From: Candidatus Poribacteria bacterium
Lineage (GTDB): Bacteria; Poribacteria; WGA-4E; WGA-3G
Length of the DNA: 41,436 bases
NCBI GenBank assembly: GCA_028820845.1
Contig: JAPPII010000024.1
Span: 1-41,436 of the forward strand
Direction of reading: 5' to 3'
Position 1 is the stretch's first letter; each line of letters opens with the position of its first letter. The translations under genes and the position numbers were made by a program. Positions 14,586-41,436 of the stretch are shown here, in pieces. The notes under the pieces were generated by a model. It worked only from the letters and a program-made list of their open reading frames with translations, was not told where the DNA came from and made no database searches.

Positions 14586-14662
14586 ATAAACATGCCGCCC
14601 CTACGGGGCTGAAGCGGTGGGTAGAATCTCTGTCTATAAATATGCTGCCCCTACGGGGCTAA
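14586..14662. repeat. two direct copies of a REP-like palindrome
   Basis: GCCCCTACGGGGC occurs at 14597-14609 and 14647-14659, exactly 50 bases apart. Similarity extends left (ATAAACATGCC versus ATAAATATGCT), so each unit is about 25 bases. The palindrome is a typical interspersed element between genes and lies upstream of the SIR2 operon promoter. Confidence 0.6.
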
Positions 14663-14701
14663 GGAGGCTTATCTTTGATACAACGTGCGTCTTGGAAATT
14701 A

Positions 14702-24905: not shown

Positions 24906-26819
24906 TCAGAGATGCTTCCGAATATTCTCTGCGACACTGCGGGGTATTCCTTTCACAGAGAGCAGGCCGTCCAAACTCGCCTCCCGAATCGCCTCAATCG
25001 AACCAAAATGCTGCAGCAGTGCCTGTTTCCGTTTCGGACCGAGGTTCGGAATTTCGTCAAGTACCGAGACGCTTAGCGACTTCTGCCGGAGCCGTCGATG
25101 ATAGGTCACCGCAAATCGGTGCGCTTCGTCTCGTAACCGCTGAATTGTATGTAGGGTCGGGTTATCTTTCCGCAAGACAATTGACTCTGACTTACCGGGA
25201 ACGAAAATTTCTTCAATCCGTTTCGCAAGCGCAATCATCGGAATATCAGGAAGACTGGACGCAGCATCTTTTGAATAGCAAGTTTTGCCTCGCAAGCTGC
25301 GGCAAAAGTTCATAGCCTTCTGCGCTGCGCTGAGTTGTCCTTTGCCCCCATCAATCAACATTAGGTCGGGCAGCTTATTAAATTTCTCATCATCTGCGAG
25401 GGCACGGCGGAAACGGCGGGTGATCACCTCTTGCATCATCGCGAAATCGTTCTGACCCTTAACTGTACGAATCTTAAACCGGCGGTACTCCCCCGAAGCC
25501 GGTTTTCCATCTTCCAAAACCACCATCGAGCCGACGGCGAACCTATCACCAAGATTTGAAATATCATACGCCTCAATCCGTCTGACGGGATGCGATAACC
25601 CAAGCAGTTCCTGTAGTTCAACGAGCGCAGGATCAACCCCACTGCCATAAACCACATTCTGCTCACGCTGTGTCAGCAGAATCTCGGCGTTCTTCGATGC
25701 CAAAGCCTGCAACTTCCTGAGCCGACCCGCTCTCGGCACGTGCAACGCGACGCGGTTCCCCCGTTTTTCGCTCAGCCAAGCTTCAATCAGCTCCGCACCT
25801 TCAATCGGCATTGGTAAAACAATCGTCTTTGGCACAAAAACAGCGTTCTGATAATACTGCGAAATAAAAGCACTCAACGCCGTCGCGAGAGATTTCGGAT
25901 CGGCATCGTTGAGATAGTAGTGCTCACGTTCAAGAAGTTTACCATCCCGTACCCGCAGAAGTTGCACGCAGGCGATATCAGTCCGAGCGGCAATCCCGAT
26001 AACATCCTCATCTGCAGCAGAAACACTATCTAAACTCTGCGTGGTAATCGCTTGTTGAACGTCTTTCAGCGTATCCCGATATTTCGCCGCCGTTTCAAAA
26101 TCGAGTGCCTCCGCAGCCGCTTCCATCTGCACTGTCAACTCTTTAACAACAGCGTCTGTATTCCCACCCAAGAACTGACACACCTTGCGAACAATCTCGG
26201 CGTAATCTCGAACATCCATTTTATCGGCACACGGACCCGGACAGCGTCCGATGTGATAATCCAAACAGGCCCGATATTTATTGCCTTTTTCTTTGAGTGG
26301 CAGGGTACAGGTACGGATAGGAAATAGTTTCGTCAACTGCTTGAGGATATGGCGTGTGGAACGCACATGAACATAGGGTCCGAAATACCGCGCACCGTCG
26401 TTCTCGGCTCTACGCGTAATATGGATACGTGGAAAGGGTTCATTGACGGTCACGCGTAGATATGGATAGCGTTTATCGTCTTTAAGCTTTACGTTATAGC
26501 GAGGCTGATGCGCCTTAATGAGATTATTCTCTAAAATTAGTGCTTCAACCTCGGTCTCCGTGACGATGTAATCGATCTCCGTGACATATCGTATCATCTG
26601 CGAGGTCAGAGCGTGCACGGATTTCTCACCACTTTTGTCTGCAAGTTTTCGGTTTGCAAGCTGCACCGAAAAATAGGAACGTACTCGACTTCGCAAACGG
26701 ACAGCCTTTCCAACATAAATAACAGTGCCGTCCGAGGCTTTCATTAGGTAAACCCCCGGCACATTTGGAAGAGAGTGCCACAATTCAGGTGTGGTATTAC
26801 TGAGTTGCTCTGATTTCAT
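24906..26819 (-). CDS. uvrC: excinuclease ABC subunit C (UvrC)
   Basis: UvrC makes both incisions around a lesion bound by UvrAB in nucleotide excision repair. The 637-residue product has the GIY-YIG nuclease (VPGVYLMKASDGTVIYVGKA, about 20-40), the UvrB-binding helix pair (about 210-245), the RNase-H-like nuclease (RIEAYDISNL, about 415; LMLIDGGKGQL, about 485) and terminal helix-hairpin-helix motifs (LGPKRKQALLQHF; VKGIPRSVAENI). Two unusual stretches, about 49-60 (SVQLANRKLAD) and 504-515 (NFCRSLRGKTCY), are encoded by related palindromic DNA and look like in-frame insertions at loops. It is the last gene of a probable glnD-SDR-trmB-uvrC operon. Confidence 0.96.
   Translation of the reverse strand: MKSEQLSNTTPELWHSLPNVPGVYLMKASDGTVIYVGKAVRLRSRVRSYFSVQLANRKLADKSGEKSVHALTSQMIRYVTEIDYIVTETEVEALILENNLIKAHQPRYNVKLKDDKRYPYLRVTVNEPFPRIHITRRAENDGARYFGPYVHVRSTRHILKQLTKLFPIRTCTLPLKEKGNKYRACLDYHIGRCPGPCADKMDVRDYAEIVRKVCQFLGGNTDAVVKELTVQMEAAAEALDFETAAKYRDTLKDVQQAITTQSLDSVSAADEDVIGIAARTDIACVQLLRVRDGKLLEREHYYLNDADPKSLATALSAFISQYYQNAVFVPKTIVLPMPIEGAELIEAWLSEKRGNRVALHVPRAGRLRKLQALASKNAEILLTQREQNVVYGSGVDPALVELQELLGLSHPVRRIEAYDISNLGDRFAVGSMVVLEDGKPASGEYRRFKIRTVKGQNDFAMMQEVITRRFRRALADDEKFNKLPDLMLIDGGKGQLSAAQKAMNFCRSLRGKTCYSKDAASSLPDIPMIALAKRIEEIFVPGKSESIVLRKDNPTLHTIQRLRDEAHRFAVTYHRRLRQKSLSVSVLDEIPNLGPKRKQALLQHFGSIEAIREASLDGLLSVKGIPRSVAENIRKHL
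25278..25309. repeat. palindromic element, copy 1, in frame inside uvrC
   Basis: Plus-strand: GCAAGTTTT, GCCTC, GCAAGCTGC, GGC, AAAAGT. The arms TTTTGCC/GGCAAAA pair over seven bases around a loop containing GCAAGCTGC. It encodes part of NFCRSLRGKTC in UvrC. It shares the left block, loop and right block with copy 2 while the stem differs. Confidence 0.65.
26641..26674. repeat. palindromic element, copy 2, in frame inside uvrC
   Basis: Plus-strand: GCAAGTTTT, CGGTTT, GCAAGCTGC, ACCG, AAAAAT. The arms TTTTCGGT/ACCGAAAA pair over eight bases. It encodes SVQLANRKL near residue 50, between the GIY-YIG core and LTSQM. Related to copy 1 with compensatory stem changes. Confidence 0.65.
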
Positions 26820-31264: not shown

Positions 31265-32326
31265 ATGAGCGATACCAAATATCGGGTAGCCATCATCGGC
31301 TGTGGACGGATGGGTCAAAACTACGCAGCGGCATACACCACCTATCCCGACACAGAGATTGTCGCAATCGCCGATGCCAATACACAGCGGCGAGAGGTCC
31401 TTGGCACGCGCTTCAATGTTGCCGCACTCTACCCAGATGTAGAAACCCTATTGGCAAACGACGTCCCAGACATCGCTGTTGTTGTCACACCCACGAAATA
31501 CATGAAAGACACCGTCATCGCCTGTGCTGAAGCCGGTGTTAAAGGTATCTCCACGGAAAAACCAATTGCCGCGCGTCTTAAAGATGCAGATGCGATGGTC
31601 GAAGCGTGTAGTGAACGAGGCGTGGTATTCGCTGGCGGGAACCTACAACGCGCAATGAACGAAGTTCAGGAAGCAGCATCTCGGTTACACAGTGGCGAAT
31701 TTGGGGACATTAGCGGCGCGAGCGTTCACGGATTTGGCGGCGAAATCTCCGGCGGCGGATGTCAACATATCTCCGTACTGCGGTTGTTCACCAACACCGA
31801 AGTTGAAGAAGTGATTGCGTGGGGAACACCTTCAGAGGCTTTAGAAGCAGAAACCGATGAAGGCTTAATCATCAACGGACGCTTTCAGTTGACTAACGGA
31901 CTCGAATGTAATGTCTTTGGAACACCGACACCGTGCCGGGGTGTAGATGTCTGGACAGATGAATGCCTCGTCCGATGGGATTGGAACCCTCCTGAGATTT
32001 TCAAAGGCTATGACTCGCACGGCAACCGTATCCGATTTGCCCCCAACTATAGTCCGTATCCGTGGAGCGAATTTAGCTATCTTACCGGCTCAATCCGATC
32101 TTTTTTGGCGGCTGTCGATGGCGATGGCTGTCCATGGATTACCGGTGCGGATCTCCGGCAGGCACTGGAGGTCGCAATCGCTGCAAAACTCTCGGCGACC
32201 CGAAACAGCGTTCCCATCAAACTCCCACTGGAAGACAGATCTTTAGCACTCTACCCGCGTCCCTACCGATGGCTCGGTGGTGACGTAACAGGTAGACCGC
32301 AAAGTATTGAAGAAGCAACAGGCTAA
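31265..32326 (+). CDS. Gfo/Idh/MocA family oxidoreductase (1)
   Basis: A 353-residue NAD(P)-dependent dehydrogenase of the glucose-fructose oxidoreductase/inositol dehydrogenase family, which oxidises a sugar or cyclitol hydroxyl. Rossmann motif IIGCGRMGQNYAAAY (about 9-23); EKPIA at about 99-103 carries the catalytic Lys. The C-terminal beta domain (about 130-340) binds substrate. The family His in the third motif is probably in GGGCQHISVLRLF. I start at ATG 31265 with AGGGGA seven bases upstream; the TTG two codons earlier is rejected. It is the first gene of the cluster and the PhyH gene follows after 46 bases that include a 33-base repeat. Confidence 0.9.
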   Translation: MSDTKYRVAIIGCGRMGQNYAAAYTTYPDTEIVAIADANTQRREVLGTRFNVAALYPDVETLLANDVPDIAVVVTPTKYMKDTVIACAEAGVKGISTEKPIAARLKDADAMVEACSERGVVFAGGNLQRAMNEVQEAASRLHSGEFGDISGASVHGFGGEISGGGCQHISVLRLFTNTEVEEVIAWGTPSEALEAETDEGLIINGRFQLTNGLECNVFGTPTPCRGVDVWTDECLVRWDWNPPEIFKGYDSHGNRIRFAPNYSPYPWSEFSYLTGSIRSFLAAVDGDGCPWITGADLRQALEVAIAAKLSATRNSVPIKLPLEDRSLALYPRPYRWLGGDVTGRPQSIEEATG

Positions 32327-32356
32327 AGTAGTAGGCACACGCCGTGTGCCGTAACA
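32324..32356. repeat. 33-base repeat at a Gfo/Idh-PhyH junction, copy 1
   Basis: It begins at the stop codon TAA and reads TAAAGTAGTAGGCACACG then CCGTGTGCCGTAACA. The centre GGCACACG-CCGTGTGCC is a near-perfect palindrome that could fold between the two coding regions. An identical copy lies at 34123. Confidence 0.75.
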
Positions 32357-33177: not shown

Positions 33178-34125
33178 ATGTCAAAACTACGAGTGGCTGT
33201 CATCGGTTGCGGCAGCAGAGGCCGCGGTCATATAAAAATCCTCTCAGAATTCGACGACACAGATATTGTCGCTGTCTGTGATCCGATTGAAGCAGCACGG
33301 AACAATGCTGGAGATATGTTCAACATCTCAGCACGTTATGAGAGCATCGAGGCATTATTGGACGGCGAGACCTTAGACGCTATCTTCGTTGCCACCCCTG
33401 CACACCTCAACGGCGAAGCGGCACTCCCGTGTTTTGAACGCGGTGTCCACACGCTCTTAGAAAAACCGCCGGGTATGAGCGTTGCAGAAACGGTCGGATT
33501 GCGCGAGGCAGCGGAACGGACAGGGGCAAAAGGAATGGTCGGCTGGAACCGTCGCTTTCATCCGATTATTGTTGAAGCGAAACGGCAAGTCACCGCACGC
33601 GGACCCGTAACACAAATCGTTGGGGAATTCCATAAGAGCATCACGCAATTGGCACGAGGCGGTAGATTCCCTGAACACCTAATGGACAATATGTTTCTGG
33701 AGACCCCTATCCACGCCCTCGATGCAATCCGCGCTATCGCCGAAGCCGAAGTTCAAGAAGTCCATAGCGTTGTCAGACGAACAATCTCTGATTACAAAGA
33801 TGTTCACGCCGCGCTTATCCTTTTTGACAACGGGTGCGTTGCCCAACACATCGCTAACTATACCACGAATGCTCGCCTTGAACGTTATGAGATTCATGGC
33901 AGAGACATCTCCGCCTATCTTGAAGGGGTCTCTCAGGGTACCGTTTTCTGCGACGGTGCTCAACACAAAATTACGAATGCAGGCACCGGCGGCACGACTG
34001 AACAAAACAGGTATTTCCTCGATTGCGTCAAATCCGATACACCTGTCTCATTTCCTGCTGCGAACCTTGATGAGGCTGTCAAAACCATGGAACTCTGCGA
34101 AGCAATCCTAAGTGGACTCCGCTAA
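33178..34125 (+). CDS. Gfo/Idh/MocA family oxidoreductase (2)
   Basis: A 315-residue NAD(P)-dependent oxidoreductase. Rossmann motif VIGCGSRGRGHIKIL (about 8-22), EKPPG near 97-101 with the catalytic Lys, and RAIAEAEVQEVHSVV/FDNGCVAQHIANYTT strands of the C-terminal sheet. GWNRRFHPI (about 121-129) is the family substrate-loop motif. AAGGAG lies seven bases before the ATG, 18 bases after the PhyH stop. It is one of three paralogues in the cluster; their sequences are clearly different, so they are not a recent tandem duplication. Confidence 0.9.
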   Translation: MSKLRVAVIGCGSRGRGHIKILSEFDDTDIVAVCDPIEAARNNAGDMFNISARYESIEALLDGETLDAIFVATPAHLNGEAALPCFERGVHTLLEKPPGMSVAETVGLREAAERTGAKGMVGWNRRFHPIIVEAKRQVTARGPVTQIVGEFHKSITQLARGGRFPEHLMDNMFLETPIHALDAIRAIAEAEVQEVHSVVRRTISDYKDVHAALILFDNGCVAQHIANYTTNARLERYEIHGRDISAYLEGVSQGTVFCDGAQHKITNAGTGGTTEQNRYFLDCVKSDTPVSFPAANLDEAVKTMELCEAILSGLR

Positions 34126-34155
34126 AGTAGTAGGCACACGCCGTGTGCCGTAACA
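34123..34155. repeat. 33-base repeat at a Gfo/Idh-PhyH junction, copy 2
   Basis: Identical over 33 bases to the copy at 32324, starting again at the TAA stop of a Gfo/Idh gene and ending just before the ribosome site of the next PhyH gene. The exact identity at the same kind of junction suggests either a recent duplication or selection for an mRNA hairpin. Confidence 0.75.
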
Positions 34156-41182: not shown

Positions 41183-41436
41183 ATGGAATTCAGTTTTGTT
41201 ACCGTTGCCCTCATAGACATCAGTGTGCTCGGCATCTGTATGATCACTCTCTGGTGGCTGAAAAAGCAGGTAGATCGCTATAAGGCGCGAAGTGAAGAAT
41301 CAGAGGAACGTTACAATACACTTCAGGGGCAGCACAACGCATTGCAAGAAGCCCATAGTGCGCTTCAAGTGCAACACAACACATTGCAAGAAGCCCATAG
41401 TGCGCTTCAAGTGCAACACAACACATTGCAAGAAGC
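41183..41436 (+). CDS. membrane-anchored coiled-coil protein, truncated by the window end
   Basis: The first 84 codons are present. Residues 1-25 contain one membrane segment (FVTVALIDISVLGICMITLWW), followed by a positive stop-transfer (KKQVDRYKARSEE) and then a coiled coil built from 14-residue units of the form LQxQHNxLQEAHSA. The last two units are encoded by 42-base repeats that are identical at DNA level, so the array is recent. The topology is N-outside or N-inside with a cytoplasmic coil; a role in cell-envelope or DNA-recombination scaffolding (RmuC-like) is possible but not shown, because the rest is missing. Confidence 0.75.
   Translation, partial: MEFSFVTVALIDISVLGICMITLWWLKKQVDRYKARSEESEERYNTLQGQHNALQEAHSALQVQHNTLQEAHSALQVQHNTLQE
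41320..41436 (+). repeat. 42-base tandem repeats in the coiled-coil gene
   Basis: The unit CTTCAAGTGCAACACAACAC then ATTGCAAGAAGCCCATAGTGCG appears twice identically with a slightly diverged first copy (CTTCAGGGGCAGCACAACGC). The array continues past the window end. It encodes two heptads per unit. Confidence 0.8.

Follow-up and report, generated by a model that had tools for sequence, protein, structure and literature searches.

A 36-nucleotide palindromic repeat inserted in frame in uvrC and dispersed among sponge-associated Candidatus Poribacteria

RESULTS

Two insertions in uvrC

The window, the whole of a 41,436-nucleotide (nt) stretch of Candidatus Poribacteria DNA, contains a uvrC gene on its minus strand that encodes 637 amino acids (ORF listing of the window; Table 1). 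The Pfam domains UvrC_RNaseH_dom, UvrC_RNaseH, UVR, and HHH are found in the protein, and its nearest named record is VXZL01000622.1 (99% identity). The two related palindromic stretches that the first-pass annotation had placed in this gene are present, at 25278 and 26641. Because uvrC lies on the minus strand, the C-terminal insertion is copy 1 (25278) and the N-terminal one is copy 2 (26641). Their shared central sequence, GCAAGCTGC, has only these two occurrences in the window, and two occurrences were reached in 1 of 100 shuffles. The palindromes themselves were correctly recognized, but the unit proved larger than first described, and each copy is followed by a stem-completing A-tract.

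Table 1. Features of the uvrC locus
Feature	Position in window	Strand	Basis
uvrC, host of both insertions (residues 505-516 and 51-63)	24906..26819	-	ORF
Copy 1, 36-nt inserted unit CTTTTGAATA-GCAAG-TTTTGCC-TC-GCAAGCTGC-GGC	25268..25303	+	Ortholog gap; covariance-model match
AAAA completing copy 1 stem (coding strand TTTT)	25304..25307	+	Pairs with internal TTTT
Copy 2, unit CTTTTGTCT-GCAAG-TTTTCGGT-TT-GCAAGCTGC-ACCG, 8-bp-arm subtype	26632..26668 (37 nt)	+	Ortholog gap; covariance-model match
AAAA completing copy 2 stem	26669..26672	+	Sequence and fold

Related Poribacteria show clean gaps of 36 or 39 nt opposite the inserted residues. The inserts had been expected near residues 49 to 60 and 504 to 515; they are indeed insertions, with limits now refined to those in Table 1, and the UvrC proteins of close relatives lack both as clean in-frame gaps, in agreement with the proposal of in-frame insertion. 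Relative to empty orthologs, the net insertion at copy 1 is 36 nt (covariance-model score of 60.5 bits, E of 3e-10), whereas that at copy 2 is 39 nt in the window genome, L034, and L038 and 36 nt in others (47.3 bits, E of 4e-7). Empty orthologs have T-rich sequence at the copy 1 site (e.g., GGCTTTCGCG), and at the copy 2 site their coding strand reads TATTTTCGTGAG. In the alignment of Poribacteria UvrC, the C-terminal insertion is filled in 5 rows, the other rows covering the site having an exact 12-codon gap (for example, L041, filled, reads GCTATGAA-CTTTTGCCGCAGCTTGCAAGGCAAAACTTGCGATTCAAAAG-TCGCGGCATCG, and L051, empty, reads GCTATGAAGGCTTTCGCGGCATCG); the N-terminal insertion is filled in 15 rows. 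Outside the element-bearing clade, other Poribacteria included, neither insert occurs in the aligned UvrC sequences, and the same residues were not seen in the UvrC of unrelated phyla. In an AlphaFold2 model of UvrC (mean pLDDT of 80, pTM of 0.39), both insertions coincide with low-confidence loops, at residues 55 to 68 and 512 to 520, that adjoin well-predicted helices and strands, and the inserts are predicted to be disordered loops.

Anatomy of the element

Over 116 distinct insertion sites, drawn from many genomes of the clade, the consensus is CTTTTGTATA-GCAAG-TTTTGGC-TT-GCAAGCTGC-GCC-AAAA. The inserted unit is usually 36 nt (36 to 38 nt across parsed sites), reads CTTTTGTATAGCAAG-TTTTGGC-TT-GCAAGCTGC-GCC, and is set against an A-tract, which on the other strand is a T-tract. 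Read on the T-tract strand, the arrangement is 5'-TTTT^GGC GCAGCTTGC AA GCC AAAA CTTGCTATACAAAAG^N, and the host TTTT/AAAA completes the stem of the element. At the 116 sites, the conserved sequence has CTTTT and AAAA as its two ends; beyond the first C and the last A there is little conservation, with one preferred A before the first C.

Sites with 7-bp arms number 102, and those with 8-bp arms number 14. Of the 714 arm cells in the 7-bp class, 688 are paired, compared with a maximum of 662 in 2,000 shuffles, and the compensatory versions GGC/GCC, GGT/ACC, AGC/GCT, GAC/GTC, CGC/GCG, GCC/GGC, and TTTC/GAAA are all present. A separate pairing count over 67 distinct rows, in an alignment fitted to the structure, agrees. 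What had been noticed for the two uvrC copies, namely, stems that differ yet remain self-complementary around a shared center, is a covariation that is also seen among the 116 sites. An alternative fold, in which the outer CTTTTG/CAAAAG and GCAAG/CTTGC would pair, was rejected: it has no covariation, and its outer-end pairing is weak. Closely adjacent pairs of copies, where seen, are direct head-to-tail dimers with a period of 37 to 39.

Five of the six reading frames of the consensus are free of stop codons, which is not evidence of selection, since by our estimate a random 36-mer achieves this about 1 time in 5. Given these open frames and the usual length of 36 nt (12 codons), a copy that lands in a gene can leave the frame intact and be retained as a surface loop that the protein tolerates.

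Copy number and distribution

With a gapped pattern, the 5.69-Mb window genome yields 7 copies versus 0 for a reversed control, and 26 places versus 10 in the control when up to 3 mismatches are allowed. A covariance model derived from 19 of the copies gives 28 matches in this genome at E < 0.01, of which 22 have E < 1e-4. The first-pass annotation had likened the uvrC stretches to palindromes that spread into protein genes, and many more copies were indeed found, inside and outside genes. At least one weak match (L131, 34.9 bits) is due to chance, its orthologs having conserved coding sequence and no insertion; because it is ordinary coding sequence, only matches below about 1e-4 (22 in the window genome) were relied on.

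At E ≤ 1e-4, a survey of 85 Poribacteria genomes found 7 to 29 copies in every genome of the window's genus (38/38) and at least 57 in G029, the sole genome of the sister genus. In a third genus, four genomes have 1 to 4 copies; a single copy is present in one distant genome, and the remaining Poribacteria have none. The family is restricted to the sponge-associated clade of Candidatus Poribacteria, with almost none in the rest of the phylum. Rfam holds no match for the element, exact-pattern matches in viral contigs do not fit the covariance model, and plasmids and phages yielded nothing convincing.

Other small repeats occur in the same genomes. A second palindromic family, (G/T)TAGGGCGCAGCTTGCAAGCCCATATT, with the core GGCGCAGCTTGCAAGCC in common (L355, L357, L359, and L446 to L473; e.g., G000:C124:10695-10720), has 0 to 6 copies per genome in the genus, 19 in G029, and a few in the third genus. 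G029 also carries a modular mosaic of small repeats (L366 to L370 and L374 to L403), in which the left half of the element is combined with a hairpin, AAGTTG...CAACTT, and with a module, TTATTTCTTACAT(T/G)ACTTGCTA. The mosaic numbers about 30 copies, certain of them nested or in tandem.

Copies inside genes

Among genes identified with Pfam, in-frame copies occur in those encoding the beta subunit of GlyS (L110), Nnr (L121), TsaD (L155), a CtaA-like protein (L240), a GNAT protein (L139), and an enolase-superfamily protein (L247), as well as in others. Gene-borne copies are found in several reading frames and in both orientations, and different frames give recurring peptides (FLAQLASQNLL-KS, FGAACKPKLA, and ASFGLQAAPK). 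Empty orthologs were seen for glyS and nnr, as for uvrC; the other gene-borne copies are presumably insertions as well, judging from the repeated sequence. By our judgment, about 10 of some 60 sites with enough flanking sequence lie convincingly in genes, and most copies are extragenic, many being intergenic or closely preceding a start codon.

Empty and filled sites

Besides uvrC, about 12 loci have orthologous empty sites that reveal clean insertions, mostly of exactly 36 nt. Among the window-genome copies, ortholog gaps measure 36 nt at L112, L113, L114, L115, L121, L122, L125, and L128 and 39 nt at L110, L119, and L127, and a few orthologs carry further small indels. The L112 site is empty in a conspecific genome, which over 2.3 kb of this locus shows 94% identity and exactly 36 gapped positions. 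No target duplication is present at any empty/filled pair, whether at the uvrC sites or at the other loci. The net insertion is usually 36 nt and sometimes 39 nt, without target duplication, and so the reading frame is kept.

Most empty sites are T-rich on the 5' side. At L112 the target is ATTT, a sequence that the empty orthologs L200 and L211 have natively, and its partner within the element is AAAT. L112 gives the clearest hint of guide pairing; the remaining targets are ambiguous in this respect. AAAA is more uniform in filled sites than in empty orthologs, which qualifies what the target can be said to contribute.

On a UvrC tree computed with the insertion columns left out, the insertions require 8 changes at the N-terminal site and 4 at the C-terminal one. 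The N-terminal copy is also found in the G029 lineage (L053) and for that reason may be an ancestral insertion that was lost, exactly, on repeated occasions. The patchy pattern in uvrC could also come from recombination between species with empty relatives.

Search for a mobilizing enzyme

Genes for Y1_Tnp (PF01797) are present in all 11 genomes tested. No convincing copy of the element lies in the neighborhoods of the Y1_Tnp loci examined, which cover a subset of the Y1 genes, and relatives of these Y1 proteins are absent from all 84 element loci compared. Nor is any Y1 subfamily common to all of the element-bearing genomes tested. Searches for an autonomous parent with the left half of the element and with the right-end module of G029 gave only other small repeats. 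A runs test for chromosomal orientation bias was not significant in five genomes, although the origin and terminus could not be located. Some Poribacteria Y1 genes (L176, L185, L186, and L187) are flanked by REP-like palindromes of their own (e.g., CGCTCCAGCGGAGCG and GGTGCGGTTTGCAACCGCACC), as in RAYT/REP systems.

DISCUSSION

A mobile repeat and its possible mode of movement

Dispersal, clean insertion at about 12 sites, a characteristic unit length, stem covariation, and in-frame presence in conserved genes are best explained by a non-autonomous, hairpin-forming mobile repeat of about 36 nt that spreads in Poribacteria by insertion beside short T-tracts, a reading that we consider quite likely. 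The copies are probably REP-like elements moved in trans by a putative single-strand (HUH-type) transposase. On this model, the internal AAAA would pair with the TTTT of the host, half of the stem being supplied by the element and half by the target; the unit would travel as single-stranded DNA folded into a hairpin, the mover would be an HUH enzyme of the Y1/TnpA type, and copies would be lost precisely and repeatedly. The likeness to IS200/IS605 and TnpA-REP transposition is drawn from the fixed length, the sharp ends, the lack of target duplication, the T-tract, and the target-pairing hairpin strand. The enzyme is a step that we infer, because the copies examined have no Y1 gene beside them, no Y1 subfamily is common to all of the element-bearing genomes tested, and no strand bias was detected in five genomes. 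A stronger proposal is tentative, and we would not expect it to hold in full: a minimal 36-nt single-strand transposon with a hairpin that the host target completes (AAAA/AAAT guide pairing with TTTT/ATTT), whose length is in whole codons even outside genes, which is excised precisely and repeatedly, and which is moved by an enzyme unrelated to any linked RAYT.

The most serious competitor is copying of the repeats by host replication or repair, with no dedicated transposase; the hairpin and the T-tracts would act as primers for template switching or gene conversion. It would fit the absence of a linked transposase, the short homology that T-tract junctions provide, the head-to-tail dimers, and an internal AAAA that is matched better by filled than by empty sites. 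However, it does not readily explain why insertions at unrelated sites usually have one net length, 36 nt, and share both of their sharp ends, and the restriction of the family to one clade suggests a specific enzyme; we regard this route as rather improbable. Much less probable is a MITE of a cut-and-paste (DDE) transposon with terminal inverted repeats. The CTTTTG and CAAAAG ends do resemble a short inverted repeat, but their pairing is weak and without covariation, all empty/filled pairs lack a target duplication, and the searches turned up no longer relative with a transposase. Marginally less probable again is a selected RNA or DNA control element (a terminator, protein-binding site, or mRNA hairpin) that arose independently many times. 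Compensatory changes that preserve the hairpin and the many intergenic copies or copies just upstream of start codons would suit such a role, whereas clean presence or absence in genes, in several frames and both orientations, and the lack of an Rfam match argue against it. That the two stretches are ordinary lineage-specific UvrC loops, as their in-frame translation and location in loops might suggest, is hardly credible, since closely related UvrC proteins lack them and the genome-wide copies, the same 36-nt DNA at more than 100 unrelated sites, already refute it.

Relation to known palindromic families

REPINs are inverted pairs of REPs linked to a RAYT. The mobile repeat described here resembles them as a short hairpin repeat spread in bacterial chromosomes (PMC3116915), but its copies are single or direct dimers, and none adjoins a Y1 gene examined. 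The palindromic elements of Rickettsia (RPE) measure 105 to 146 bp, and many genes carry them in frame (Ogata et al. 2000; review, PMC2229807). As with RPE, the Poribacteria palindromes are dispersed, occur in frame in unrelated conserved protein genes (uvrC twice, glyS, nnr, tsaD, and others) and also outside genes, and are tolerated as inserts; in contrast to the RPE, with their greater length and long stem-loop, the unit is 36 to 38 nt and differs in sequence. REPs tagged with GTAG or CGTC are palindromes of 20 to 40 bp with an unpaired motif beside the hairpin and are mainly extragenic (Di Nocera et al. 2013, PMC3733652). They include intragenic REPs as well as RPE-4 and RPE-6; some are in frame in genes, with many cases among DNA repair genes, the uvrB gene of R. 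conorii carrying two (PMC3733652). The Poribacteria family likewise has an imperfect palindrome of 20 to 40 bp and many copies, some of them in frame, but the motif beside its hairpin is GCAAG rather than GTAG or CGTC. Unlike the GTAG REP/RAYT systems, no RAYT gene flanked by the element was found among the Y1 loci examined, and its dimers are head to tail. In IS200/IS605 and TnpA-REP, guide tetranucleotides select the cleavage sites (PMC8266576). The element shares with IS200/IS605 the lack of target duplication, a position beside a short T-rich motif, and a hairpin near its end, and it may share an internal guide tetranucleotide that complements the target; it differs in having no transposase gene and no covarying second end hairpin, and no strand bias was detected in the five genomes.

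The Rickettsia parallel drawn in the first-pass annotation thus stands as an analogy, but membership in the RPE or the tagged REPs does not, on grounds of length, tag, and linked transposase, and the same differences bear out its suggestion of a new family. Our best reading is that the Poribacteria repeat behaves as RPE and intragenic REPs do and would constitute a new, separate family of a known kind. No earlier report of it was found in the open literature searched, the coverage of which is incomplete.

Protein-coding palindromes are known from Rickettsia and from some REP-rich genomes, and to our knowledge, no mode of movement has been settled for them. The Poribacteria family offers a distant phylum, sharp ends, many empty/filled pairs among related species, and one site that is polymorphic between conspecific genomes. 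The limits of the element, its choice of target, its excision, and the degree to which proteins tolerate it thereby become directly testable. Insertion of the element is a route by which bacterial proteins can gain loops of about 12 residues.

Other repeats in the window

The window contains three further sets of repeats. Close copies at 14586 to 14617 and 14636 to 14667 carry a GCCCCTACGGGGC palindrome and resemble the palindromes beside the Y1 gene at L177. Identical 35-nt direct repeats with the palindrome GGCACACGCCGTGTGCC lie at 32322 to 32356 and 34121 to 34155, and a tandem array with a 42-nt period occupies 41321 to 41436, reaching the end of the window.
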